Notes under the pieces: model-generated
What the model saw: only the letters and a program-made list of their open reading frames with translations
What the model was told of the DNA's origin: nothing
Databases searched by the model: none
Shown here: positions 7,327 through 26,600 of the stretch, one piece after another
How the letters are laid out: each line of letters starts with the position of its first letter
Position numbering within the stretch: the stretch's first letter is position 1
Program-made: the position numbers and the translations under genes
NCBI GenBank assembly: GCA_011322445.1
Contig: DRMV01000022.1
Location: 1-44,652, forward strand
Reading direction: 5' to 3'
Source of the DNA: Chloroflexota bacterium
Lineage (GTDB): Bacteria; Chloroflexota; Anaerolineae; Anaerolineales; DRMV01
Length of the DNA stretch: 44,652 nt

Positions 7327-9864
7327 GTGAGGCATGGAAGGCGTTCCCGAGGATGGTTGCTGGGCTTCTTCCTGGCTTTGGCACTGCTGCTGGCGGGGTG
7401 CGGCGGCAAGTCGGTCGAGGTGCTGCGGCGCCAGGGTGAGTTCTTCATCCGCCCCGATGGACGGGTGGAGGTGACGGAGACCTGGGAAGTCCGCTTTCGG
7501 GGTGGGCCGTTTCGGAAGGCTTTCCGCAGCATTCCTTACTATCGCCTGGAGGGGGTGAGTGACTGGCAAATAGCCGAAGACGGGCAAACCTATCGTGAAG
7601 TGGAAGGCGCGGCCGAGGCCGCTCCCTACACTTTTTGGGTGGAAGACGACGGCACCGAGAGCCGGGTGGTCTGGCGCTTTCCTGAGACGCACAGCGCCAC
7701 CCGAACTTTTACGCTTCGCTATACACTGCACGGGGTGTTGTGGGTAGCGGAAGAAGGGGATCGCTTTTTCTATGCTTTCATCGAGGCCGATAGGGGGTAT
7801 TCCATCCGAGATGCCCGGGCCACGGTGCACTTGCCGGCGGCTTTCCCCCCTGGGCGGCTGGAGACGGCCACCTTTCGAGGGGAGGAACCCTCGGACGATG
7901 AAGTGACCTTTCCCGATCAGCGCACGGTTGTTTTCCATGCGCGTAAGTTGGCCCCCGGCGAGCGGTGGGAGATTGGGGTATCCTGGCCCCACGGCGCGGT
8001 GCAGGCTGCGTCGCCAGCCTGGCAGCGGGAAGCCATGCGTTGGGTGCGCCCTGAAGTCTATCAGGCTTTCCTGCGCCTGGAACCCGATGGGCGGGTGCGG
8101 GTGACCGAGACCTGGCGGTTGCATTTCGTCTCGGGGCCTTTCACCGAGTTCACTCGCACGTTGCCCCAAACCCGGCTCGACCGCATCACCGATTGGGGGC
8201 TGAGCATGGATGGGCAGCCGTGCCCGTGGGTGGACGACCCCTTCGGGGAGGATTGCGCGCTGACGATGAGTGACGATAGCGGCCTCTTGGGGGGGAAGAG
8301 GCGGTATGAAGCCGTGTGGCACTTCCCTGAGACGAATGACGCCACACACACCTTTACCTTCACTTACACGGTATGGGGGGCTGTGGCCCAGGGCGAGCGA
8401 GATCAACTGCACCTGACGCTGGTTGATTCCCTCTTCCCCCCTTGGCCGAGTCAGAAAGTCGAGGTGGGGCTGGCTTTACCTTCGGAAGCCCTGCAGACCA
8501 CCGCCCAGCCGACGCTGTGGGCGGGAAAAGCGCCGTGGGATGTTCCTTCCTGGAAGCAAGATGGCACCTGGTGGTTTCGCTGGGCCGGCGGGGCAACGCC
8601 TGGGGGCACTTCGCTGGCTATTGAGGCTTCCTGGCCCGGGGCCCTGCTGGCCCTGCCGGTACCGGCCTGGCAGCAACGCCAGCAGGCCAGGATTGCAGCC
8701 TATCATCAGCGGTTGTTCAAAATTGGCTTGTTGACCGCCCCCTTCGTGTTGCTGGTGGTGGTTTTGCTTGTGTTGCTGTTCCTGCTGGAGCCGCCCCTCT
8801 GGCCGTGGCCCTGGCCTAAATCGGCTCCCCCCGAGGCGCTGCCCCCGGCGCTGGTGGGGGTGCTGCTGGACCGGCAGGTGTTACAGCGCCACGTGCTGGC
8901 AACGTTGTGGGATCTGGCCCGAAAGGGGTATCTGCGCCTGGAACATCGGGGAGGAACTTACCGCTGGCGACGGCTGCGCGACGCCGATGTGCATTTGCTG
9001 CCTTATGAGCAGGCGGTCTTGGAATCTTTGTTCCCGGGGGACGAGAAACGCTCTTGCTCTCTGGCGACGGCGCAAAGGCGCCTGGAGGTGGGCTGGGATG
9101 AGGTGGTGCGCCTGCTTGAAATCGAGGCCCTGGGAAACCGACACTGGTTCCGCTGGCCGTGGCATATTCGGGCGAAGGTTCGCCGGGTTTTGAACCTCGC
9201 GGTAGGGGTGTGGGGGTTCGTTTTCGTGGGCGGGTGTCTGTTGGTTGATGCGCCCGCAGAAGAGCAGAAGATTTACCTTCTCTGGCCGGTGCTGCTGGGT
9301 GGAATGTTGGTGGTGCAATGGTGGCTGCCCCGACGTCTTCCGCCGCGCACGTGGGGAGGATGGCGCGCGGCGGCCCGCTGGCGGGCGTATCGTCTGGGGC
9401 TGTGGCTGCGTTGGCTTCGCCCTTCGGCCTTGTCTCAGGATACCTTGGACGAGACGCTGGCTTATGCCACGGCTTTTGGGCTGGGCCCACGTTTGTGGCG
9501 CCGCTTGCAGGCCCGGCCGCCTGCTGCGGCTTCGGCGTCTTTTGCATGGGTGCATTTGCCTGCTGCGGCATCGGCGGCGGGCCGCTCGTCCAGTCCATCG
9601 GAGGGCGGAGTGACCGTTTCCGCCACAGATGCGCTGAATGCAGCCGCGGGCGCGGTGTTTGCCGCCCTCGAGGCCGCGGCGAATGGCGTTTTCTCGGCGC
9701 TGAACGCGGCTACAGCGCCTTCGACGCCTTCTTCCGGCAGCAGCGGCTACAACAGCAGCGGTAGCAGTTCCTCTTCCGGCTTTGGAGGCTCGTCGTCGTG
9801 GGGAGGCAGCACTTTCTCCGGCGGTGGCGGCAGCGGCGGCGGTTCGAGCGGGTTTGGGGAGTGA
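7327..9864 (+). CDS. Lipoprotein/membrane protein with tandem DUF2207-like ectodomains
   Basis: 845 residues. GTG 7327 is chosen because GGAGG (7315-7319) precedes it by 7 nt. The signal ends in lipobox LLAGC (Cys25). Two homologous beta-rich ectodomains follow: about 30-225 (FIRPDGRVEVTETWEVRF, then RVVWRFPETHSATRTFTLRY) and about 236-455 (RLEPDGRVRVTETWRLHF, then EAVWHFPETNDATHTFTFTY). After a helix at about 464-490 comes a cytoplasmic-type region that looks like the winged-helix part of DUF2207 proteins (LLDRQVLQRHVLATLWDLAR, GYLRLEH), two further helices near 620-660, and a Ser/Gly-rich tail ending SGGGGSGGGSSGFG, typical of this family. DUF2207 proteins have no settled biochemical function. 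A single ectodomain is usual, so the duplication is notable. Confidence 0.85.
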   Translation: MRHGRRSRGWLLGFFLALALLLAGCGGKSVEVLRRQGEFFIRPDGRVEVTETWEVRFRGGPFRKAFRSIPYYRLEGVSDWQIAEDGQTYREVEGAAEAAPYTFWVEDDGTESRVVWRFPETHSATRTFTLRYTLHGVLWVAEEGDRFFYAFIEADRGYSIRDARATVHLPAAFPPGRLETATFRGEEPSDDEVTFPDQRTVVFHARKLAPGERWEIGVSWPHGAVQAASPAWQREAMRWVRPEVYQAFLRLEPDGRVRVTETWRLHFVSGPFTEFTRTLPQTRLDRITDWGLSMDGQPCPWVDDPFGEDCALTMSDDSGLLGGKRRYEAVWHFPETNDATHTFTFTYTVWGAVAQGERDQLHLTLVDSLFPPWPSQKVEVGLALPSEALQTTAQPTLWAGKAPWDVPSWKQDGTWWFRWAGGATPGGTSLAIEASWPGALLALPVPAWQQRQQARIAAYHQRLFKIGLLTAPFVLLVVVLLVLLFLLEPPLWPWPWPKSAPPEALPPALVGVLLDRQVLQRHVLATLWDLARKGYLRLEHRGGTYRWRRLRDADVHLLPYEQAVLESLFPGDEKRSCSLATAQRRLEVGWDEVVRLLEIEALGNRHWFRWPWHIRAKVRRVLNLAVGVWGFVFVGGCLLVDAPAEEQKIYLLWPVLLGGMLVVQWWLPRRLPPRTWGGWRAAARWRAYRLGLWLRWLRPSALSQDTLDETLAYATAFGLGPRLWRRLQARPPAAASASFAWVHLPAAASAAGRSSSPSEGGVTVSATDALNAAAGAVFAALEAAANGVFSALNAATAPSTPSSGSSGYNSSGSSSSSGFGGSSSWGGSTFSGGGGSGGGSSGFGE

Positions 9865-9872
9865 GGCAAAGA

Positions 9873-9940
9873 CAAGATGCAAGGTGCAGGGGGCAAGATG
9901 CAGGATGCAGGATGCAGGATGCAGGTTGCAGGTTGCAAGC
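9873..9940 (+). repeat. Degenerate 7-bp GATGCAG repeat array
   Basis: Tandem variants of the 7-mer GATGCAG (GATGCAA, GGTGCAG, GGTTGCA) fill the gap between the DUF2207-like gene and the importer promoter. 9894-9915 is identical to 6894-6915. Unlike the first array, only one orientation is present, so no hairpin forms. No gene is seen here. Confidence 0.75.
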
Positions 9941-9965
9941 GTGGCTCGCGAGGCAGGGCAGGGAT

Positions 9966-9999
9966 GGCAATTGCCCTATGGAAGGGGGTATAATTGCCC
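9966..9999 (+). promoter_or_regulatory. Promoter of the ABC importer with paired AATTGCCC sites
   Basis: A perfect TATAAT (9989-9994) lies 61 nt before the start of the binding-protein gene, with a weak TGGCAA hexamer (9965-9970) 18 bp upstream. The octamer AATTGCCC occurs at 9969-9976, inside the palindrome GGCAATTGCC, and again at 9992-9999 overlapping the -10 box. The two copies are 23 bp apart, about two helical turns, as expected for a repressor site; the regulator is unknown. Confidence 0.45.
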
Positions 10000-10055
10000 C
10001 ATGCACTTTGCCCTTTTTTGGCAGAAGTGCGCACCCCAACGATGGAGGTATGACC

Positions 10056-11450
10056 ATGTCCTTGAAGCACAAAGTGCTCGTCCTTGTCTCGCTGCTGTTG
10101 GTGCTGAGTATGGCGTTGGCGGCGTGCGGTTCGAAGGCCACTTCGACGCCCGCCCCCGCAGCCACTGAGGCCCCGGCGGCGACTGAGGCCCCGGCAGCCA
10201 CCGAGGCCCCTGCGGCCACGGAAGCGCCTGCGGCCACGGAAGCGCCCGCGAAGCCCGTCACCATTGAGGTTTATTACCCCGTGGCGGTGGACGCGCCGAT
10301 TGCCAAAATCCTCAATGGCTATATTGCCGAATTTGAGAAAGAAAACCCCAACATCACCGTGAAGCCGGTGTTCGCGGGGGGCTACGGCGATGTCAAGACT
10401 ACCATCCAGACCACCATTGAGGGTGGCGGGAAGCCGCCGGTGCTGGCCGTGATGCTCGCTGCCGACCTGTACGACCTGGTCAACGCTGGCTACATCGTCC
10501 CGTTGGACGACTTCATCAAGGCCATGCCCAATGGCGATGCCTACATCAACGACTTCTTCCCGGCCTTCCTGGCGAATTCCAGGTACGACGGCAAGATCTG
10601 GAGCATTCCCTTCCAGCGCAGTGTGGTGACGCTTTACTACAACGCCGACCTGTTCGAGCAGGAAGGCATCAAGCCGCCCGACAGCTGGCAGGCGCTGGCA
10701 GAAGCCGCCCAGAAACTCACTATCCCCGACAAGCGCTGGGGCATCGAATGGCCTTCTGGCTGGCCTTACTGGCTGTTCCAGCCGCTGGCCATTGGCAATG
10801 GCCAGAACATCGTGAAATCGCCCACCGAGGTGGTCTTCAACGACCCGAAGGTGATCGAGGCCGTGCAGTATTACATCGACCTCTCGCACAAATACCACGC
10901 GATGCCCGAAGGCGTGCAGAAGAACTGGGGCAACGCGCCGGCCGATTTCGCTTCGGGTGCCGCGGCAATGATCGTGCATTCCAGCGGCAGCCTGAACGGC
11001 ATTCTCAAGCAGGCCGACTTCAAGGTGGGCGTGATGGCCGTGCCTGGTAAGGAGCCCGGCACTTACGCCACCGTGACCGGCGGCGGCAATTTCTACATGC
11101 TCAAGGGCGCGACGCCTGAGCAGCAGCAGGCCGCCTGGAAGTTCATCGAATTCGTCACCCAGCCCAAGTATGCCGCCGACTTCAGCATCCAGACGGGCTA
11201 CATTGCTACCCGCAAGAGCGCCTACGAAACCGATGCGATGAAAGCCTACATCGAGAAGGTGCCGCAGGCCGGACAGTTGAAGGATATGCTGCAGTACGCT
11301 GGCGCGGAACTTTCGTGCATGAACCTGGGCAAGGTGCGCAACATCTTCCACAAGTACCTGCAGGCAGCCTATAACGGCCAGATGACGCCTGAAGAGGCCA
11401 TGCAGAAAGCCCAGCAGGAAGCCGACAAGGCGCTGGAGATGTTCAAGTAG
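10056..11450 (+). CDS. ABC transporter substrate-binding lipoprotein (UgpB-like, family 1)
   Basis: 464 residues. ATG 10056 is chosen over ATG 10050 because GGAGG (10044-10048) then has 7-nt spacing. The signal peptide ends in lipobox LAAC (Cys24), and an Ala/Thr/Glu/Pro spacer (about 25-69) follows. The rest is a type-1 solute-binding fold: TIEVYYPVAVDAPIAKILN at its start, a GNPP-like turn (GGGKPPVLAVML), NADLFEQEGIKPPDSWQAL, and a C-terminal helix pair. The sequence resembles UgpB/MalE-type proteins for glycerophosphoesters or oligosaccharides, and I cannot tell which. It delivers substrate outside the membrane to the two permeases encoded next. Between it and them lie 150 nt with two hairpins, as often seen where the binding protein is made in excess. 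Confidence 0.9.
   Translation: MSLKHKVLVLVSLLLVLSMALAACGSKATSTPAPAATEAPAATEAPAATEAPAATEAPAATEAPAKPVTIEVYYPVAVDAPIAKILNGYIAEFEKENPNITVKPVFAGGYGDVKTTIQTTIEGGGKPPVLAVMLAADLYDLVNAGYIVPLDDFIKAMPNGDAYINDFFPAFLANSRYDGKIWSIPFQRSVVTLYYNADLFEQEGIKPPDSWQALAEAAQKLTIPDKRWGIEWPSGWPYWLFQPLAIGNGQNIVKSPTEVVFNDPKVIEAVQYYIDLSHKYHAMPEGVQKNWGNAPADFASGAAAMIVHSSGSLNGILKQADFKVGVMAVPGKEPGTYATVTGGGNFYMLKGATPEQQQAAWKFIEFVTQPKYAADFSIQTGYIATRKSAYETDAMKAYIEKVPQAGQLKDMLQYAGAELSCMNLGKVRNIFHKYLQAAYNGQMTPEEAMQKAQQEADKALEMFK
10158..10247 (+). repeat. Five 18-bp tandem repeats coding AATEAP
   Basis: Five consecutive 18-bp units encode Ala-Ala-Thr-Glu-Ala-Pro. The last two differ only at the final base. They form the flexible tether between the lipid anchor and the binding domain. 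In-frame copy number can change without breaking the gene. Confidence 0.85.
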
Positions 11451-11475
11451 TGTGCGTTTGAAGTCTAATCCGTAC

Positions 11476-11506
11476 CATAGGGGCGAGGCGCCACCTCGCC
11501 CCTATG
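11476..11506 (+). promoter_or_regulatory. 13-bp intergenic hairpin behind the binding-protein gene
   Basis: CATAGGGGCGAGG (11476-11488) is perfectly complementary to 11494-11506, with a 5-nt loop. No T-run follows directly, so it more likely protects the 3' end of the upstream message than ends transcription. Confidence 0.7.
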
Positions 11507-11515
11507 TGTCATTCC

Positions 11516-11550
11516 GTCCACCGATGCGCGCCGATGGACGCTGTTTTTTT
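11516..11550 (+). terminator. Weak terminator/attenuator before the permease genes
   Basis: GTCCA (11516-11520) pairs with TGGAC (11535-11539), with two more pairs beyond one mismatch, followed by a T7 tract (11544-11550). It lies 50 nt before the first permease. Partial termination here would give more binding protein than permease; this is inferred from layout only. Confidence 0.45.
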
Positions 11551-11600
11551 CTGGGTGCTGTGCTCGTCGGTGCAGTCGGTCGTTTTTCCCGGAGCCTGCC

Positions 11601-12506
11601 ATGTCTGCTGCTGCCCCTCCGCTTTCCCACCGCAAAGCCCCCAAGTGGCTGCCCTATTTACTGATTTCTCCCACGCTGGTGATTGTGCTGGTGTTCACCG
11701 CCTGGCCCACGGTGCAGGCGATTTACATGAGTTTCTTTCGCCAGTATCTTAATTTTGCCAAGTTCCGCACGCCCACTTTCATTGGCTTACAGAACTATAA
11801 AGAGCTCTTCACCAGCCCCGATTTTCTGCAGGTGCTGAAAAACACGGCTATTTATGTGATTGGTACCGTGCCCGCGAGCATTGTGTTGGCTTTCCTGTTT
11901 GCCTTGCTGGTCAACCGGGCGGTGAAGGGGATTGGCCTGGCGCGTTTGGGTTTTTTCTATCCCACCATTTTGCCTATGGTGAGCGCCGCGACTATCTGGA
12001 TGTTCTTTTTTACGCCTGATTATGGGCTTTTCAATACTTTCCTGGAAACCTTCGGCTACCACGGCCCTGAAAACTGGCTGGGGAACCCCCACCTCGCCTT
12101 GCTTGCTGTCATGATTGTGGCCGTGTGGAAGAACGCCGGTTATTTGATGATTTTCTACCTCGCCGGGCTGCAAAATTTGCCAGAAGATGTCTTCGAGGCG
12201 GCTTCCCTCGATGGGGCCAGCTGGTGGACCCAGTTGTGGAAGATCGCCTTCCCCCTGCTGCGCCGCACGACACTTTTTGTTTCCACCATTGCGATTATTG
12301 ATGCTTTCCAGGTGGTGGACCATATTTTCGTGATGACGCAAGGCGGCCCCAGTGGTGCCAGCACGGTGTTGTTGTATTACTTGTGGCAGGTGCGCTTTGA
12401 AGACCAAAACGTCGGGCTGGCTTCTGCATTGACGGTGGTGCTCATCGTGATTATGCTGGCGATTACGATTACAAACTTTGTGCTTTCTGAGCGGGAGGGG
12501 GCATGA
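11601..12506 (+). CDS. ABC transporter permease, UgpA/MalF type
   Basis: 301 residues, with GGAG (11591-11594) at 6-nt spacing. A typical six-helix BPD_transp_1 permease: the first helix follows KAPKWLPYLL (about 18-40), and the cytoplasmic EAA loop is EAASLDGASWWTQLWKIAFP (about 199-218), the contact site for an ATPase. MTQGGPSGAS near 252 is a common signature of sugar-type permeases. Its stop overlaps the start of the second permease (ATGA), so the two are translationally coupled. Together they form the membrane channel for the substrate bound by the upstream lipoprotein. No ATPase gene is present in the window, so a shared ATPase encoded elsewhere (MsmX/UgpC style) is likely. Confidence 0.93.
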   Translation: MSAAAPPLSHRKAPKWLPYLLISPTLVIVLVFTAWPTVQAIYMSFFRQYLNFAKFRTPTFIGLQNYKELFTSPDFLQVLKNTAIYVIGTVPASIVLAFLFALLVNRAVKGIGLARLGFFYPTILPMVSAATIWMFFFTPDYGLFNTFLETFGYHGPENWLGNPHLALLAVMIVAVWKNAGYLMIFYLAGLQNLPEDVFEAASLDGASWWTQLWKIAFPLLRRTTLFVSTIAIIDAFQVVDHIFVMTQGGPSGASTVLLYYLWQVRFEDQNVGLASALTVVLIVIMLAITITNFVLSEREGA

Positions 12507-13351
12507 TGGTCGTAAGCAGTGCAAAACTCCGCAAACGTTTGACGGATGTGTTCCTCAATGTGCTCACGGCGGTGCTGGCCGCGGGATGGGCTTCTATCAT
12601 CGTCTGGGCGGTGGTGGTGTCGTTTCGGCCTTCCAGCGAGCCGCTGGGGCGCGGCGATGTGTGGTTCGGCCATGCGCTGACCTTTGCGAATTACCTCAAA
12701 GCATGGTCGCTGGCCCCCTTTGGAATTTACTACCGCAACACGATCATCATTGTGGGGATGATTTTAATTGCCCAGTTGATTACGATCACGCTGGCGGGCT
12801 TTGCTTTTGCCCACCAGGAATTTTGGGGCAAGAAGGCGATTTTCTTCTTCATCCTGCTGCAATTGATGATTCCCGCGGCGGCGCTTTTGGTGCCTAACTT
12901 CTCTACCATCCGCAAACTGGGGCTGTTCGACACCACGCTGGCAGTGGCGTTGCCTTATTTTGGCTCGGCTTTCGGCACGTTCCTCATGCGGCAGGCTTTC
13001 CTGGAGGTGCCGCGCGACCTGGTCGATGCGGGCATCATGGATGGCTGTTCGTGGTGGCAGTTGTTGTGGCATATCTATCTGCCGCCCTCGGTGCCCACCC
13101 TGGTGGCGTTTGCCCTTTCTTCGGTGAGTTGGCACTGGAACGAGTTTCTCTGGCCGTTGGTGGTCACCTTGACCAACCGCTCGCGCCCGCTGACGATTGG
13201 CCTGGTGCGCTTTACGCAGTTGGGCGAAATTGGGGCGCGCTGGCCGTTGCTGGCGGCGGCGACGATCACGGTGATTGCGCCGCTGTTCCTCCTCTTCCTG
13301 ATTTTCCAGAAGCAGTTCATCCGCAGTTTCCTGCACTCTGGGCTGAAATAA
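12503..13351 (+). CDS. ABC transporter permease, UgpE/MalG type
   Basis: 282 residues. The ATG overlaps the stop of the first permease by 4 nt. There are six predicted helices, and the EAA-type loop is VDAGIMDGCSWWQLLWHIYL at about 174-193 with the invariant Gly. The C-terminus ends QKQFIRSFLHSGLK, close to the usual end of MalG/UgpE proteins. It pairs with the preceding permease to make the channel. The next gene starts 6 nt after the stop codon, so this operon runs on into an exporter gene. Confidence 0.93.
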   Translation: MMVVSSAKLRKRLTDVFLNVLTAVLAAGWASIIVWAVVVSFRPSSEPLGRGDVWFGHALTFANYLKAWSLAPFGIYYRNTIIIVGMILIAQLITITLAGFAFAHQEFWGKKAIFFFILLQLMIPAAALLVPNFSTIRKLGLFDTTLAVALPYFGSAFGTFLMRQAFLEVPRDLVDAGIMDGCSWWQLLWHIYLPPSVPTLVAFALSSVSWHWNEFLWPLVVTLTNRSRPLTIGLVRFTQLGEIGARWPLLAAATITVIAPLFLLFLIFQKQFIRSFLHSGLK

Positions 13352-13357
13352 CGGCTG

Positions 13358-14251
13358 ATGTCCCGCCGCTGGCTTGCTAACAGCCTTTTGCTCATCACCG
13401 CCGCGGTGTGGGGGCTGGCTTTTGTGGCCCAGCGTGTGGGGATGGACTACATTGGCCCCTTTACCTTCAACGCGGTGCGGTTTGCGTTGGGGGCGGTGGT
13501 GTTAGGGTTTATCGTGCGCTTCCGCCGGGGCCGCGCTGCGCGGCTTGCTTTGCCGCGAGCCAGCGTGCAGCGCGGCCTGGTGTTGGGGCTGGTGCTTTTT
13601 GTGGCTTCCTCGTTTCAGCAGGTGGGCTTGGTTTACACCACCGCCGGGAAGGCGGGCTTCATCACAGGGCTGTATGTGGTGCTGGTGCCGCTGGCGGGGG
13701 CGCTGCTGCTGGGAGAACGCCACGGCGCGCAAGTATGGCTGGGGGCAGGATTGGCTGCCGCGGGCCTTTACCTGCTGAGCGTTACCGGCGCGTGGCAGAT
13801 GGAAAAAGGCGACCTGCTGGTGCTGATGAGTGCCTTTTTCTGGACGGCGCACGTTATTTTGGTGGGGCGGTGGACGGTCGCCCACGATAGCCTGACGCTG
13901 GCTGCGTTGCAATTCGCCGCGGTGGCGCTGCTCAGCGGCGTGGTGGCCGCGGACTGGGAAAGCGTGACGCTTGCAGGCTTGCAGGGGGCGCTGTGGGCGA
14001 TTTTGTATGGTGGGCTGATTTCGGTGGGCGTGGGCTATACGCTTCAGGTGGTGGCCCAGCAATACGCCTTGCCGGCTCACGCGGCCATTATCATGAGCCT
14101 TGAGGCGGTGTTTGCTCTGCTGGGCGGTGTGGTGTTGTTGGGGGAACGCGTGAGCGGGCGCGGCCTGGTGGGGGCGGCGTTGATGCTCGCGGGCATGGTA
14201 ATTTCCCAATGGGAAGCCACGGCCGACGACGTGGCAGGCGGGGCGGGCTGA
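13358..14251 (+). CDS. EamA/DMT-family transporter
   Basis: 297 residues and about ten hydrophobic helices arranged as two EamA repeats (about 8-140 and 150-285). The characteristic starts are AAVWGLAFVAQRVGMDYIGP and, in the second half, SAFFWTAHVILVGRW; the GLYVVLVPL and MSLEAVFALLGGVVLLGE segments are typical. Members export amino acids, metabolites or drugs, or move nucleotide sugars; the substrate cannot be told. The start lies 6 nt after the second ABC permease stop, without a clear ribosome site of its own, implying translational coupling with the importer operon. Confidence 0.88.
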   Translation: MSRRWLANSLLLITAAVWGLAFVAQRVGMDYIGPFTFNAVRFALGAVVLGFIVRFRRGRAARLALPRASVQRGLVLGLVLFVASSFQQVGLVYTTAGKAGFITGLYVVLVPLAGALLLGERHGAQVWLGAGLAAAGLYLLSVTGAWQMEKGDLLVLMSAFFWTAHVILVGRWTVAHDSLTLAALQFAAVALLSGVVAADWESVTLAGLQGALWAILYGGLISVGVGYTLQVVAQQYALPAHAAIIMSLEAVFALLGGVVLLGERVSGRGLVGAALMLAGMVISQWEATADDVAGGAG

Positions 14252-17681: not shown

Positions 17682-17730
17682 AGGGCACACCCAGGGGGAA
17701 GCCGGATGTGGAAGATGGTGACGCGTACAG

Positions 17731-17752
17731 ACCGCCTCAAGGCGGTTTTTTT
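17731..17752 (+). terminator. Rho-independent terminator of the regulator gene
   Basis: ACCGCC (17731-17736) and GGCGGT (17741-17746) enclose a TCAA loop and run straight into a T8 tract, 50 nt after the regulator stop codon. A clear intrinsic terminator. Confidence 0.9.
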
Positions 17753-17856
17753 ATTTGTTCAGAGGGTTGTTCATAGAGTAAGGGGTAAGATGCAGGCAAG
17801 AATTCGGTGATGACGTGGAGAGCGTCATTCGGTGGCTTGAACTAAGGAGGTTTCTC

Positions 17857-18024
17857 ATGTTGAACAATGTGATGAATCGGACGATGATGGCGCTGGCTGA
17901 CCCGCGTCGGCGGGCGTTGCTGCGGGTGGTGGTGATCGCGTTGGCGCTGCTGGCCAGCTGGCTTATTCCCCAGCACTACGCTTGGGCAGAAGGGGTTTTG
18001 ATTCCGGGCGGCCATGGCGTTTAA
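17857..18024 (+). CDS. Small exported pre-peptide (predicted 11-residue product)
   Basis: 55 residues. ATG 17857 is chosen because AAGGAGG (17844-17850) stands 6 nt before it, an excellent ribosome site; the frame is open a little further upstream without one. The sequence has a basic stretch (DPRRRALLR), a hydrophobic core (VVVIALALLASWLI) and an AWA signal-peptidase-I-type site at 42-44, leaving the predicted mature peptide EGVLIPGGHGV. It could instead stay as a single-pass membrane peptide. The next gene, 26 nt on, has an equally strong ribosome site and resembles RiPP-leader-like Os1348 proteins. Upstream, an ATTCGGTG direct repeat (17802-17809, 17827-17834) brackets a small ATGACG/CGTCAT hairpin. 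No family recognised. Confidence 0.7.
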   Translation: MLNNVMNRTMMALADPRRRALLRVVVIALALLASWLIPQHYAWAEGVLIPGGHGV

Positions 18025-18050
18025 CGGCAACCTCGACAAGGAGGCTCCCA

Positions 18051-18323
18051 ATGTGCAAACTAACCCTCAACGCCATTGTGACCCGGGCTTTGATGGATGA
18101 GCGTTTCTGCCAGGCCCTGTTGGCGGGACAGACCGACCAGGTCCTGCGCGAATTCCCTCTGGGCGAGGAAGAACGCTGGGTGTTGGAACATGCCCGGGCG
18201 GCCACGTTGGATGGGTTTGTCGCGCAGCTTCACGCGTTGATGCATCAACAGCAAGCGCCAGTGCCCGCGCCCGCAATGGACATGCCTGTGGCGGCGGCTT
18301 ACCAGGCGGTGGGCGCAGCCTGA
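18051..18323 (+). CDS. Os1348/NHLP-leader-like small protein
   Basis: 90 residues. ATG 18051 is set by AAGGAGG (18038-18044) with 6-nt spacing. Residues 1-65 are helical with the pattern IVTRALMDERFCQALLAGQ, then FPLGEEERWVL and TLDGFVAQL, which matches my recollection of the Os1348 family, short proteins related to the nitrile-hydratase-like leader (NHLP) peptides of RiPP precursors. The tail (about 70-90) is Pro/Ala/Met-rich and ends in alanines, without a double-Gly core or Cys/Ser/Thr-rich core. It may therefore be a regulatory or leader-like relative, not a true precursor. No RiPP-modifying enzyme is encoded in the window. It is probably co-transcribed with the pre-peptide gene. Confidence 0.7.
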   Translation: MCKLTLNAIVTRALMDERFCQALLAGQTDQVLREFPLGEEERWVLEHARAATLDGFVAQLHALMHQQQAPVPAPAMDMPVAAAYQAVGAA

Positions 18324-18491
18324 GAGAGCGGTGTAGTGGGCCTTCCTGGGGCGCATTCAAAGGTAGGGGTAGTAGATGCAAATAGTCTGACGAGCCTTTC
18401 CCCGTTGGAGCCTTGGGTGGGTGCGCATCGCTTTCCCGAGCACCGCAGAGGAAACACGCCGGGACCGCGGCCTCACGACGCACACGGAGCG

Positions 18492-19169
18492 ATGGAAATG
18501 GTGCCCACAAATTCTTTACAGGCAGTTGTGGGGGAAGATGCGGAGCGAAGGGCTCGTCTGAGGTTGGCCCTGGATGAGGGTGGGGGTGTTCTCCGGGCCT
18601 ACCTGACAGACCTCTTCGTGCAGGGGTGGGTGGCGGCGCTGCACGTCCGCGATCTGGAAACCAGCGACCATACCCATCGCGTGGCGCGCGCGACCGTGGC
18701 TCTCGGCCGGGCGTTGGGCCTTGATGAGTGGACGCTGCGTATCTGGCGCTGGGGAGCACTGTTGCACGACATTGGGAAAGTGGCCGTGCCCGATAACATC
18801 CTCCACAAACCGGGGCCGTTGACGGCAGAGGAGTGGCGCGTGATGCGCCGTCACCCGCTGCTGGCGCGAGAGATTCTTGAAAAAGCCGCTTTCCTGCCGG
18901 CCGAAATTGTAGAAATCCCTCTCTATCATCATGAGCGCTGGGATGGGAGTGGCTATCCCTTTGGCCTCAAAGAAGGTGAGATTCCGCTGGCGGCGCGAGC
19001 CTTTGCCGTCGTTGATGTGTGGGATGCCCTCCAAAGCGAGCGCCCGTATCGTCTTCCCTGGCCGCGGGAACGCGTGGTCCGCTACATGCAGGCCAACGCA
19101 GGTGTTCTTTTCGACCCCTATTTGGTAGAACTGTATATCCGCCTGTGGCGGCAAGGGTTGCAAGGTTAA
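18492..19169 (+). CDS. HD-GYP domain protein, probable c-di-GMP phosphodiesterase
   Basis: 225 residues from ATG 18492; ATG 18498 has better spacing from GGAG (18486-18489), and a GTG far upstream at 18336 is possible but has no ribosome site. The domain carries the family residues: H60/H62 in SDHTHRVA, the HD pair H92-D93 in LHDIGKVAVPDNILHKPG, H121, H146/H147 and the GYP signature HHERWDGSGYP (146-156). There is no receiver, GAF or PAS domain, only a short helical N-terminus, so it is a stand-alone HD-GYP protein. It should hydrolyse cyclic di-GMP in the cytoplasm and so lower matrix/adhesin output. The giant adhesin-like gene 1.4 kb away is a tempting but unproven target. Confidence 0.88.
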   Translation: MEMVPTNSLQAVVGEDAERRARLRLALDEGGGVLRAYLTDLFVQGWVAALHVRDLETSDHTHRVARATVALGRALGLDEWTLRIWRWGALLHDIGKVAVPDNILHKPGPLTAEEWRVMRRHPLLAREILEKAAFLPAEIVEIPLYHHERWDGSGYPFGLKEGEIPLAARAFAVVDVWDALQSERPYRLPWPRERVVRYMQANAGVLFDPYLVELYIRLWRQGLQG

Positions 19170-20610: not shown

Positions 20611-23600
20611 TGAGATTCTCTCGACGATCTTGGCTTGCCAGGTTTGGCATCATGGGGCTTGTAATGATGGCCCTCTTGGCTCGGCCGCAAACGGCACTTG
20701 CGGCGACGAGCGGGAGGGTTGCTGCGTTTAATACGGGGGGATACAGCCACCAGGCTTTTGAAGCGGGAACAGCAACCTCTACCCCGAGTGCGACGCCTGC
20801 CCCGAGCAATGCCGAAGGGCCTGCGCCGACGGCGACGGTCATGGCGACCTCGGGGGCAGATGAGGCGGCGCCCCCGGCGGATACGCCAACGTCAACGCCA
20901 ACGACCATGCCGACAGCGGGCGTGACGCCGACGACCACCCCAGCGGTGACGGCCACGGCGACCTCGCCTGTCACTGCAGCGCCCACGGTCACGGCGACGC
21001 CTGCACCCACCGGAACGGTCACGGCGACAGGGCCGCCACCACCCGCCACGGCAACAGTCACGGCAGCACCGGCAACCACGGCCACGCCGGTCGCCACGAG
21101 CGAGGCCCGGCCAACAGAGGGGGACGCGGGCGCCGCAGGAACGGGGGGACAGGATCCTTACTTTACGGCCACAGACGCAAGCGGGAATTCCACCACTTAT
21201 GCCTATGAAACCGATTGCAGCACTGCCCCGACGGGGAGCACCTGTACCACAACGACCACCCCAGTGCAGGCTGCAGTTGATGGGGCTAAAACGCAAAAAG
21301 CCAACGGTGATACGATTCAAAATGACACCATCAACATCGAGGCCGGCGAGTTCACTGAGACTTCGCTGACCTTGCAAGACATTGATTTCCCGTTGACTTT
21401 GGAGGGGGCGAGCGGCGGTACCACCACGCTGGACGCCGACATTTCGGTGCAGAACGTCAGCGCGACGTTGACCTTCCTCAACCTGGTGCTCAAGGGGACG
21501 ATCTCGGTACAGAACAGCACCGACGTGCAGTTTCAAAATGCCACGGTGAGCAATGCCCTTACGGTGCAGAATGCCTCGGTGACGCTGGACAATGTCAGCG
21601 GCAATGCGACCACGAATACCGTGACCGTGGTTTCCGATGGGAAGGACGCAGCCACGAATGTATCCAACACGCTGACCGTGCAAAACACGAGCGACAACGT
21701 GACGGTAGCGGTGCAGAACAGCGACGGCAACGATGCGCACACCGTGGTCGCCAACGGCGCCACGGTGACGGTCAACGGCTCGTCGGGCGACGACCACGTC
21801 ACGGTGCAACTCCAGGGCGGCAACACGACGACCAACGCGGTGGCGGTGAACGGCGGCGACGGCGATGATGCGCTCACGGTGGAACAGCAGGGCGATGCTA
21901 CGAGCACGGTGAACTACAACGGGGGAAGCCAGACCACCGGCGACAGCCTGACGGTGACGGGGAGGAACACCGACGCAGCGACCTACACCCCCGCCGCCAA
22001 CACCTCGGGTGTCGGCACGGTCACAGCAGCCAACGCCACGGTGAACTTTGCCAACCTGGAACCGGTCACGGTGCACGATGTCGCCAGCCTGACGGTGAAC
22101 GGCAGCGCCGGTGTGGACGCCTTCGCTGTGGATAGTCCGGCGGCGGGCGAGAACCGCATCCACGGCACGGTGAACGGCGGCACGCCTTTCGAAGCCGTGA
22201 CTTTCTATAATGTGTCGACGGTGACGGTGGCGCTGGGCGCGGGCAACGATAGCCTGACGCTGGAAAGCGACCTGGGAGCCGCGAATCTGACCAGTTTCCA
22301 GGTGCAGGGCGGGGCGGGCACGGATACGCTCACGGCGTATGACAGGGTGAACGATTGGCAGATTACGGGAGCCGATACGGGGACGCTGAACAGCGTGCTT
22401 TCCTTTACAGGGGTGGAAAACCTCGTGGGCGGCAGCGACGCCGACACCTTCACCATCGGGAGCAGCGGCAGCCTGAGCGGCGCGCTGGACGGCGGCGGCG
22501 GGTCGGACACGCTCGTGGGGCCGAACCTGGATGCAGCCTGGGGGGTGACCGCGGTGAACGCGGGCACGCTTTCCGTGGGCGGGGCGCAGGTCGCCGCATT
22601 CCAGGATGTGGAAACCCTGACGGGCGGCGGCGGCAACGATGATTTCACCATCGGGAGCGGCGGCAGCCTGAGCGGCGCGGTGAATGGCGGCAATGGCACC
22701 GATACGCTGGATTTTGGCAATTACAGCGCCGCCGTGGCGATGGTGCTTCTGGCCCTGGGAACTGGCGGCTTCCGCGGCACGGTGACGGCGTTGGGGGGCG
22801 GCTTCGACGGCATCGACGGCGTGATTGGCAGCGCCCAGGTGGACCACCTCACCGGCCCTGACGGCGGTTTGACGTGGCAGATCACCGGGGCGGATGGAGG
22901 CATGGCGGGGAGTTTCGCTTTCGAAGCCATCGAAGATTTGAGCGGTGGCAGCGGCGCGGATACCTTCGTGATGGGCGCGGGCGGCAGCCTGAGCGGCTCG
23001 CTGGACGGCGGCAACGGCACCGATACCCTGGATTACAGCGCCTACAATACCACCGTGGTGGTGAATTTGATGCAAGGCACGGCCACGAATGTTCAGCAAG
23101 GGATTTCTTCCATCGAAAATGTCACAGGGGGCAACGGGAATGACGAGATTACCGGCAACGACAGCGCAAATGATCTGGAAGGAGGGGGAGGCGACGACAC
23201 GTACTTCCTCGCCGAGGGTTGGGGAACGGATACGATTGTAGATAGCGGCGGCAGCGATACAGTGGACTGGCTGGCGGTCACCGTGAACACCACCCTGCGC
23301 TTCACTGCCAGCACGACCGCAACGCTTTCCGACGGCGCGGGGGATTCTGCCGGTATTCAGGGCGTGGAAACCTTCCAGGCAGGCAGCGGGAACGATACCT
23401 TCCAGGTTGATGGCGGCGTGACGGCAACGGCCACCATCTACAGCAACGGCGGGGATGACACCATCGTTTTGGGCGATGGAGGGAAAATCAGCGGGGCAGT
23501 GGACGGCGGCGATGGATCGGACACGCTGAATTACAGCGCTTACACGACGACGGTCTGGGTGAATTTGACGACGAGACAGGCCGTGAACGTGGCCGGCGGG

Positions 23601-26600
23601 GCGCAGAATGGGGTGTCGAACTTCGAAAATGCCATCGGCGGCAGCAATGATGATACGCTGGAGGGCGACGGCAGCGACAATATGCTCCAGGGCAATGGTG
23701 GCAACGATACCATTTACGGCTACGGCGGGAACGACACCCTCAGCGGTGATGTGGGGAACGACGTGGTTTACGGCGGCGACGGCGACGATACCCTCGACGG
23801 CGGCTCGGGGAACGATAAACTTTACGGCGAGGCCGGCAATGACACCCTCAGCGGTGGCCCGGGGAACGACGCGATTTACGGCGGCGATGGCACGGATACC
23901 TTTTCCGAAACCCAGGATGCCGTCGGGTTCAGCGTGGATTTGTCGGATATTCAACAGGATACCACGACGGGGGATTACTATGTAGAAGCCACCCAGAACG
24001 GCGTCGGCGGCATTGGCACGGACCGACTGTATGCCGATAGCGTCGGTAATTATTGCGAGATCGAGAACGTCACCGGCGGCAGTGGGAACGACACGCTCAC
24101 CGGCGACGACCGGAACAATGTCCTCAAGGGCGGCCCCGGAAGCGATACCCTCGACGGCAAGAGCGGGGACGACACCTATGTCTTTGGCCCCAATTGGGGA
24201 GCGCATGACTATGTAAAGGAAGCGGACAACGGCGGGGAGGATACGTGGGATTTCAGCGCTGTGCCGGGCACGGTTGGCCTGCGGGTGGTGGTGGACAACA
24301 AGCCGGGGCAGGAAAAGGTGTTTGCTTACACCACCACCGGTCTCGACTTCGTCGAGTTCGTGAACGCCAGCGGCACCTCGGGGAACGACATTGAACACTT
24401 CGTGGGCACCTCGGGCGATGACCTGTTTTACTATCGTGCCATGCGCAGCCCCGACGTTTTCTTCGATGGGGGGGACGGCCACGACGTCCTTTACCTGGAT
24501 GCGGGCAGTGCTGCCATTGATTACACCCTTGCCAGCGGCCTCAACAGCGGGCAAACGAAGGTCTCTATGCAAGGGGTACCAGTACCACCCTCTGTCTCTT
24601 TCCAGCATGTCGAGAAAGCGGAACTGTATGATGGCATCTTGCCCTTGCGCAATGGGGAAGCCAGTGCGCTGCGCGACCTGTTCGTGGCTTGGTACACATG
24701 GGGCGGGCGCCTGCAGGCCACAGGCTATCTGGATGTCACCCTCCCGCTGGTGGGCAGTACAGCCTATGGTGCAGAGGACGAGCGCCGCACCCTGGGAAAC
24801 ATCCTCGACCTGCAAACGCTGTGGCAAACGTATCTTGCCGACGTCGTGTTCCCGGCGGGCGACCTGCCCTCCAACACCCTTGAGGTGCAAACTCGCCTGG
24901 AGAGCATTACCGGCAACGGCAGCGACCTCAGCATTGCGGTGACGCTGGCTTCCCTGCCTGCGGCGTTCCCCTTCGACCCTGCCGATTTCTCAGCACCCAC
25001 GTGGGTCGAAATCACCTGCGATGCGGCTTCGTGCGACGACAGCCTGCACTTCGACGCCGATTACAAGGCCACGCGTGCCTACACCACCTTCTACCCCTCT
25101 GCCGCCGATGGCCTGAAAGAGTGGAACTTCGCTTTCATCGACCCGACCACGGGGGACAACCTGCAAGTGCGCCTCCAGAACGAGGCTGTGCTGGATATGC
25201 CCATGACCTTCGGCGACTGGCATCGTTCGGACGGGAACAACCGGGAAGCCTTCCTTACCCTCGACGGCGGGGAGATGGCGGCTTCTTTGGGCGATGGTTC
25301 GGGAAAGGATCTGGTGCGCGAAGACGACCCCAGTGATAACGTGCTGCCTGCCCTCTTTGGCTTTGCCCCAATCGAAGTCTCGGGCGGCCAGACCACTTTC
25401 CAGGCTGCATTGACCCTGGCCCCGCCCGACCTCGATGGCAACGGTTACTTCACCACGGCCGAAATCGGGCAGTGGGATCAAAACGGAAGCCACGCCACCA
25501 CGCAGACCATCCAAAGCGAGACCTTTAGAGCCGACCTGCCCGTGGCCTTGCGCGGCAGCGACACCACATGGTTGACGGTGCCTGCGGGCGCGAAAGTGAC
25601 GCTGCAAAACGACCATGTTTTCACCCAGCCCACCTACACCCTGACCACTTTTGAGAACTTCGGCGATCTCTTCTACTTCCATCGCGCCAACGCGATGGCC
25701 GTGCTGGGCATGTGGCGCAAACTGACGGCGTGGTTGGTGCAGTTTTCAGGGTCGCCGTTCCTGAATATTCCCATTCCCTTTGTGGGGGGCGTGACCATTA
25801 TCGACGCTAACGGGCATGAGCACCATCTGGCCCCGCCGGTGCTGGGGCAGTTGATCAACTACGGGGCGGTGTTCAAGAGTAAATTGCTCGATGCGCTTTA
25901 CAACCAGCCCTGCGACCCCAACGACGCCAGTTGTCAGGAAGCCGTTTCCCTTTGGTGGCAGGATTTGAAAGACTACCCGAACTGTGGAGCGGGCGGCAGT
26001 GCGGATTGTGGCACGCCGACTTTCGCCGATGCTGTGGAACTGGCTGACAAACTCAAAGGGGCGGTGGGCGATACGCACCTCACCTGGGAATATGATTCGG
26101 CGAGCAAGGAACTCCGCTACACCATCACGAACTGGCAGGTCGCCTTTGCCCTCTCGGTGGACCCGGCGATTTACGCTTCTTACGACCTGGGAAGCGCCGG
26201 CGACCTGCTGGAGGACCTGACCGCCCAGGGCAGCGCGACGGTGACGGGGACGCTGACCTTCAACTTTACCTTTGGCATCAACCTGGGGCAGGTGTCCGAT
26301 CGGGCCGTGCTGGGGCCGGACATCCCCACCGTGCCTTCGCTGTACGGCGAGCCGCTCTTCATTCAGCGGGTGATGGACGCCGCCAACGATACCACCAAAC
26401 TGGATGGCGTGCCGATTACCGGGCAAATCGACGGCACCCTGGATGCCAACGGCGACCCCACTCATGACCACCGGGCGGTGTTCTCCATGACGGTGGATAC
26501 CTCGAATGGGCCGCTTACGAGAAACATTACCCTCGATACCAGCGGGAATGCCGACCCGCAGGCCGCTCAAGATCAGGGATACCCGATTTTGGACGACCCT

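Follow-up and report, generated by a model that had tools for sequence, protein, structure and literature searches.

The closest precedent for the locus described here is the AfsR-afsS pair of Streptomyces, in which AfsR, a SARP regulator with NOD and TPR parts, directly activates the adjacent afsS gene via two 11-bp repeats (PMC10936776, PMC10972967); the product AfsS has 63 residues with three 12-residue repeats (PMC2267785). SARP operators are defined as direct repeats of about 11 bp near the -10 box (PMC10936776, PMC10972967), and in SARP promoters the repeats lie 11 or 22 bp apart, with 8 bp between the 3' repeat and the -10 element (PMC10936776). The SARP-LAL regulators PimR and SanG also combine SARP and STAND/TPR parts and use heptameric direct-repeat operators (PMC10972967). 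In the RRNPPA pairs of Bacillota (Rap-Phr, NprR-NprX, Rgg-SHP) the gene of a TPR regulator adjoins that of a tiny propeptide that is exported and has a short C-terminal tail, and tandem repeated pheromone units also occur in these systems (PMC11343458). Os1348 of Pseudomonas sp. Os17, a protein of the NHLP clan (PDB 6lk7), is linked to antibiotic activity and modifying genes (PMC7726476).

The window, by which we mean the whole 44,652-nt stretch of Chloroflexota DNA that was analysed, holds a small operon preceded by a large regulator gene (Table 1). Across many Chloroflexota families it looks as if such a regulator switches on a neighbouring peptide gene together with a partner and signalling enzymes, which would make a peptide-signalling circuit not described before. 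The earlier note on this DNA, which dealt with the peptide gene (ORF A) and the gene following it (ORF B), had overlooked the SARP-STAND-TPR regulator encoded upstream and, immediately before the peptide gene, its operator. The regulator matched PF03704 (BTAD) with 75.3 bits, above the curated cut-off of 22.1, and TPR_MalT with 54 bits, while its match to MalT NF003420 (265 bits over residues 13-807) does not reach the model cut-off of 537 bits. A STAND-TPR-SARP gene also lies upstream in relatives. Just before the regulator the window carries genes for a solute-binding protein (PF13416), two permeases (PF00528) and then an EamA transporter (9798-14251).

Table 1. Features of the regulator-peptide locus (positions in the window).
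Feature	Position	Strand	Basis
MalT-type STAND NTPase-TPR-C-terminal SARP (BTAD) regulator, 1076 aa	14451..17681	+	PF03704, TPR_MalT, MalT NF003420
Intrinsic terminator (predicted) between regulator and peptide operon	17729..17757	+	stem 17729-17748 plus T-run
SARP-type operator (predicted), direct repeat TGTTCAGA-GGGT-TGTTCATA, 12-bp period	17756..17775	+	conserved in 6/6 genus genomes
Putative -10 hexamer TAAGAT	17786..17791	+	sequence; 10 nt past second repeat
Shine-Dalgarno AAGGAGG, peptide gene	17844..17850	+	sequence; 6 nt to ATG
55-aa pre-peptide gene (ORF A), predicted export	17857..18024	+	sequence, genus conservation, dN/dS comparison
Predicted mature tail EGVLIPGGHGV	codons 17989-18021	+	sequence
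Shine-Dalgarno AAGGAGG, Os1348-like gene	18038..18044	+	sequence; 6 nt to ATG
Os1348-like (NHLP-clan) small helical protein gene (ORF B), 90 aa	18051..18323	+	NF038399 match, relatives
HD-GYP domain protein, probable c-di-GMP phosphodiesterase	18336..19169	+	PF13487, 118 bits

The likeness to AfsR-afsS lies in the regulator architecture, in the adjacent tiny gene, whose product is sometimes built of repeats, and in the two direct repeats of about 11 bp at a fixed distance from the -10 box. Here, however, the SARP domain is C-terminal in a MalT-like architecture, whereas that of AfsR is N-terminal, and in a Chloroflexota host the regulator is accompanied by a mostly exported or transmembrane peptide (as predicted) as well as Os1348-like, DUF5317 and signalling genes. 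While SARP-LAL regulators control antibiotic gene clusters, the present operator precedes a peptide operon. With RRNPPA systems the locus shares an adjacent small propeptide gene, secreted as judged from its sequence; the regulator is of another type, STAND-TPR-SARP and not HTH-TPR or a Rap protein, the tails are very Gly-rich and the role as ligand is hypothetical.

ORF A encodes MLNNVMNRTMMALADPRRRALLRVVVIALALLASWLIPQHYAWAEGVLIPGGHGV, which reads as an RRR n-region, a hydrophobic core and the stretch HYAWA immediately before EGVLIPGGHGV; secretion calls in this study were made by eye from the sequence, without a signal-peptide predictor. ORF A had no match in Pfam and NCBIfam, and the cassette peptides of other genomes gave nothing above cut-off in the same libraries. 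The claim of a short exported peptide with a conserved tail holds up within the genus, sampled as six genomes (G000-G005, three of the relatives being MAGs of two Anaerolineales bacteria and one Chloroflexota bacterium): ORF A is signal-like and the tails (AEGVLIPGGHGV, AEGILIPGGHGV, AEGVLIPGGQGVN, AEGILIPGGQGA, ADGYLIGGGQPA and AEGVLLPGGQPA) follow the pattern A[ED]G[VIY]L[IL][PG]GG[QH]. The proposed conservation of EGVLIPGGHGV is thus genus-wide in the form of this pattern, but other families have other tails. For the peptide gene we estimated dS 0.48 and dN 0.025 between G000 and G005, and dS 1.55 and dN 0.148 between G000 and G004, and the dN/dS picture for ORF B among the genus members compared is similar. 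Since changes among close members are mostly synonymous, both frames appear to be coding and under purifying selection. They stand side by side in all six genomes, and both proposed AAGGAGG sites, 6 nt before each ATG, were verified. On these comparisons ORF A and ORF B are real genes, paired and maintained by purifying selection.

The second protein had been described as NHLP-like. This stands in so far as ORF B matches NF038399 ('Os1348 family NHLP clan protein') with E 1.5e-5, but at 25 bits it is divergent and stays below the curated cut-off of 40 bits, and we therefore name it Os1348-like and do not file it as a member; PF14407 gave E 0.061 only. Os1348 homologues of relatives in the same cassette do score above the NF038399 cut-off, the helical core of ORF B is homologous to these related sequences, and a profile of the relatives weakly finds Os1348 (6lk7, E 0.13) and the alpha subunit of nitrile hydratase (4ob1, E 0.0033). 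By profile and homology, then, ORF B is a divergent relative of the Os1348/NHLP clan and the family link is real. A fold model (pLDDT 63, 4 sequences) gave nothing meaningful in Foldseek, Os1348 (6lk7) not being among the matches. The helical core is conserved, and the C-terminal extension is absent or unrelated outside the genus.

The signalling context suggested from the neighbouring HD-GYP gene was borne out. The match of this gene, which perhaps starts at the ATG at 18492, is clear (Table 1), and it adjoins the pair in G005, G003 and G001, the contigs of G002 and G004 stopping short of that position. The gene after Os1348 encodes an HD-GYP protein in the genus and in L041, L132, L254 and L256, a histidine kinase in L108, L129, L135 and L143, and a receiver domain in L121 and L142 (identities by Pfam, for L254 by local profile and sequence); in many other families, too, the next gene is a signalling gene of the HD-GYP, histidine kinase, response regulator or PAS/GAF kind. 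DUF5317 (PF17248) is common between the peptide and Os1348 genes in other families and absent from the genus cassette. Genes for DUF5317-like membrane proteins are a recurrent partner in L117, L119, L121, L139, L145, L146 and L148, either in that place or just past Os1348.

The order of regulator, tiny peptide, Os1348-like protein and signalling gene was counted by hand in more than 30 family-level groups of the phylum, so that both the small ORF and the gene pair, whose occurrence in relatives and in other Chloroflexota had been proposed as a check, recur well beyond the genus. An NF038399 search of 150 genomes of the class led to 60 scored loci. All 28 scored as having a SARP regulator and an Os1348 homologue carry in the gap a small ORF that is led by a Shine-Dalgarno site and encodes a TM/signal segment ahead of a short tail (24 loci under strict criteria; L139, L144, L148 and L149 by eye). 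Under the strict criteria the 24 kb of gap gave 27 matches and 845 kb outside it gave 6, of which four hold the cassette position in L120 and L128; as the criteria were chosen after examples had been seen, this ratio is descriptive, though large. A less biased control comprised 70 BTAD genes from 30 + 40 loci that were not selected for the cassette. The BTAD domain was C-terminal in 25 of them, with Os1348 nearby in 11, and every one of these 11 also had a peptide (10 found by script, that of L293 by eye). For the remaining 14 the script found neither peptide nor Os1348, and a peptide without Os1348 was seen in none of the 25. Os1348 was near 0/45 of the N-terminal or internal BTAD genes, the peptide search having covered the C-terminal set.

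Outside the class, cassettes of the same order were found in the family groups f70, f74, f76, f92, f103 and f105, with different tails, some of them Pro/Trp-rich and not Gly-rich (L234, L238, L246, L249). L221 (f73) has the peptide, the operator and Os1348, and its regulator was not recognised by the profile used; the Os1348 homologues of family f69, with neither regulator nor peptide nearby, were set aside. A second group of Os1348 homologues (L223-L229, L232, L233, L235, L241, L242) starts with MSQ.AVQQIIGRAV..., and many of its members end in KSAGRGFI or a similar sequence; neither a SARP regulator nor a tiny peptide is encoded near this group.

The repeat in the window reads TGTTCAGAGGGTTGTTCATA. 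The pattern TGTTCAKANNNNTGTTCAKA has one site per genus genome, at the peptide gene and with 0 mismatches, in 6/6; with up to two mismatches allowed, the window's genome yielded no second site, and the genus relatives had 0-2 extra sites with 2 mismatches each, which is the control level. Among the loci as a whole, 24/56 peptide promoters contain an exact 8-mer repeat with a period of 11 or 12 bp, compared with 1.4% of 160-bp windows drawn at random from these loci; for repeats matching at 7 of 8 positions the figures are 39/56 and 16%. The repeats picked by script are not always the operator (e.g. L103, L106). In 34 of the 39 promoters TANNNT follows the start of the second repeat at 14-22 nt (shuffled mean 5.4). 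The repeat itself varies among families (GTGAG, GTAAG, GAAGC, GTTTATAG). The layout described for SARP promoters agrees with that of the peptide promoters, the period in the window being 12 bp. A sigma-70 scan found no promoter, which is weakly consistent with dependence on an activator, and the terminator before the operator is a consensus match only (3 found; mean of shuffles 2.3). From the linkage of regulator and peptide gene together with the operator we infer direct activation, and we consider it highly probable that the regulator binds the direct repeats and directly activates the peptide operon. In the window's genus this operon is probably its only or main target.

In most peptides of relatives a signal/TM segment precedes a short tail that is usually rich in Gly, with ends such as LIIAGGAPTGPGGPGA (two copies in L123), IVASGAPAGPGGSNGG (two copies in L121), LALAGGAPDGYSGSG (L132) or VASGAPSSVCASC (L139). 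Tandem gene copies with near-identical tails are present in L106, L121 and L123. In the L293 peptide three LLANPPVGGGSSATG units come after a signal segment, and in L037, L039 and L040 leaderless peptides of 63-66 aa are made of four PRGGGIGTGP, PVGGGVGTGP or PIGGGIGSGP units. The tandem copies and the repeat peptides of three to four units suggest that the tail is the functional unit. Leaderless forms also occur in L045 and L257 (19 aa in the latter), and Sec export is thus not universal.

The regulator was modelled with AlphaFold2 from three sequences, giving a mean pLDDT of 56 for the whole protein, weak outside the TPRs and about 80-90 over most of residues 350-740. This TPR part resembles domain III of MalT (Z 22.7) and two pheromone receptors, Rap-phi3T (Z 23.2) and NprR (Z 21.4). 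Unrelated TPR proteins match equally well (LGN, Z 24.6), and the shared fold is no proof of function. The model shows a superhelix of a kind able to hold peptides, and nothing beyond that. Tails covary with the TPR part (partial Mantel 0.33, 0/200 permutations), but as the leader does so as strongly (0.40), this covariation probably reflects shared ancestry.

It is tempting to speculate that these elements form a loop. The regulator, acting on the SARP-type repeats, would activate the peptide operon; Sec export and cleavage between AWA and EG would release free EGVLIPGGHGV, which after re-import could be sensed by the TPR superhelix, while in the leaderless repeat lineages sensing might take place before export. 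Sensing would close a positive loop with an HD-GYP, kinase or response-regulator gene as output. The Os1348-like protein may serve as a partner, either holding the peptide or tuning the regulator, which is the weakest step of the model. We regard the chances as evenly balanced that this is a dedicated, self-regulating circuit in which the exported peptide is an autoinducing ligand of the TPR domain; feedback by the peptide as the regulator's ligand seems nearly, though not quite, an even prospect. The broader proposal, that the tiny peptides are ligands of adjacent STAND-TPR-SARP regulators and so form a phylum-wide autoinducer class outside Bacillota in which a STAND ATPase is the receptor and an Os1348-like protein the accessory, is tentative and falls somewhat short of even. 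The single regulatory site in the genus appears narrow for a quorum-sensing system and counts against an autoinducer.

By analogy, the main rival is a one-way relay such as that of AfsR and afsS, in which another cue (a nutrient or kinase input) would turn on the tiny gene and the product would be a downstream membrane or exported effector and not a ligand. The AfsR precedent fits the operator, and the repeat-built AfsS may be set beside the leaderless forms, which are of about the same length. The genes for a solute-binding protein and permeases upstream of the regulator mean that a sugar, as in MalT, or another solute could be its cue. Against this, the sigma-like AfsS differs from most of the products here, which combine a signal/TM segment with a short tail of diverse sequence, and the duplication of genes and of tail units fits a ligand precursor no worse. 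We consider a relay possible but on balance doubtful.

The peptide or the Os1348-like protein could instead be the precursor of a modified antimicrobial (a RiPP or bacteriocin) with the NHLP-like protein as detached leader, and the modified-peptide reading had been offered for this locus before. The role of Os1348 in Pseudomonas sp. Os17, which belongs to the same broad family as ORF B by sequence, and the paired cysteines in some tails (L139, L148, L117) speak for it. Here, however, the Os1348-like gene accompanies the genes of a regulator and a peptide, without a modifying-enzyme cluster in the ORFs scanned; this subset of window ORFs contained no recognised modifying enzyme, dedicated exporter or immunity gene, and the downstream genes of the cassettes scanned with Pfam encode signal-transduction proteins or DUF5317. 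Conservation of the Os1348-like protein in its helical core and not in the C-terminus, which is not kept outside the genus, likewise argues against a RiPP precursor. With no modifying genes in the parts examined, we rejected this as the main explanation and hold it to be improbable. Very improbable is a small membrane protein, the uncleaved ORF A product staying in the membrane to control a membrane partner such as the DUF5317 protein: the hydrophobic segment close to the tail, imperfect cleavage sites in several families (e.g. QLA before EG in G002) and the frequent place of DUF5317 between the peptide and Os1348 genes favour it, but the genus cassette has no DUF5317, and the peptides of L037, L039 and L040 are free repeat units without a TM segment.

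If the peptide circuit is real, peptide signalling would extend to Chloroflexota, and NHLP-like proteins would gain a role besides that of RiPP leaders. A limited search of the open-access literature found no described peptide-signalling system in Chloroflexota, which speaks only weakly for novelty. According to the AfsR structure paper, it is not known whether the sensor domain of AfsR is bound by an inducer (PMC10936776), and an AfsR-like regulator whose evident target is a single operator and a single tiny peptide gene offers a concrete candidate ligand.

Elsewhere in the window, the minus strand has an open frame of 1365 codons (20892-24989), repetitive and rich in H, R, A and G, while the plus strand has no long open frame there. 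The frame could encode a genuine repetitive protein or have arisen spuriously from GC content.
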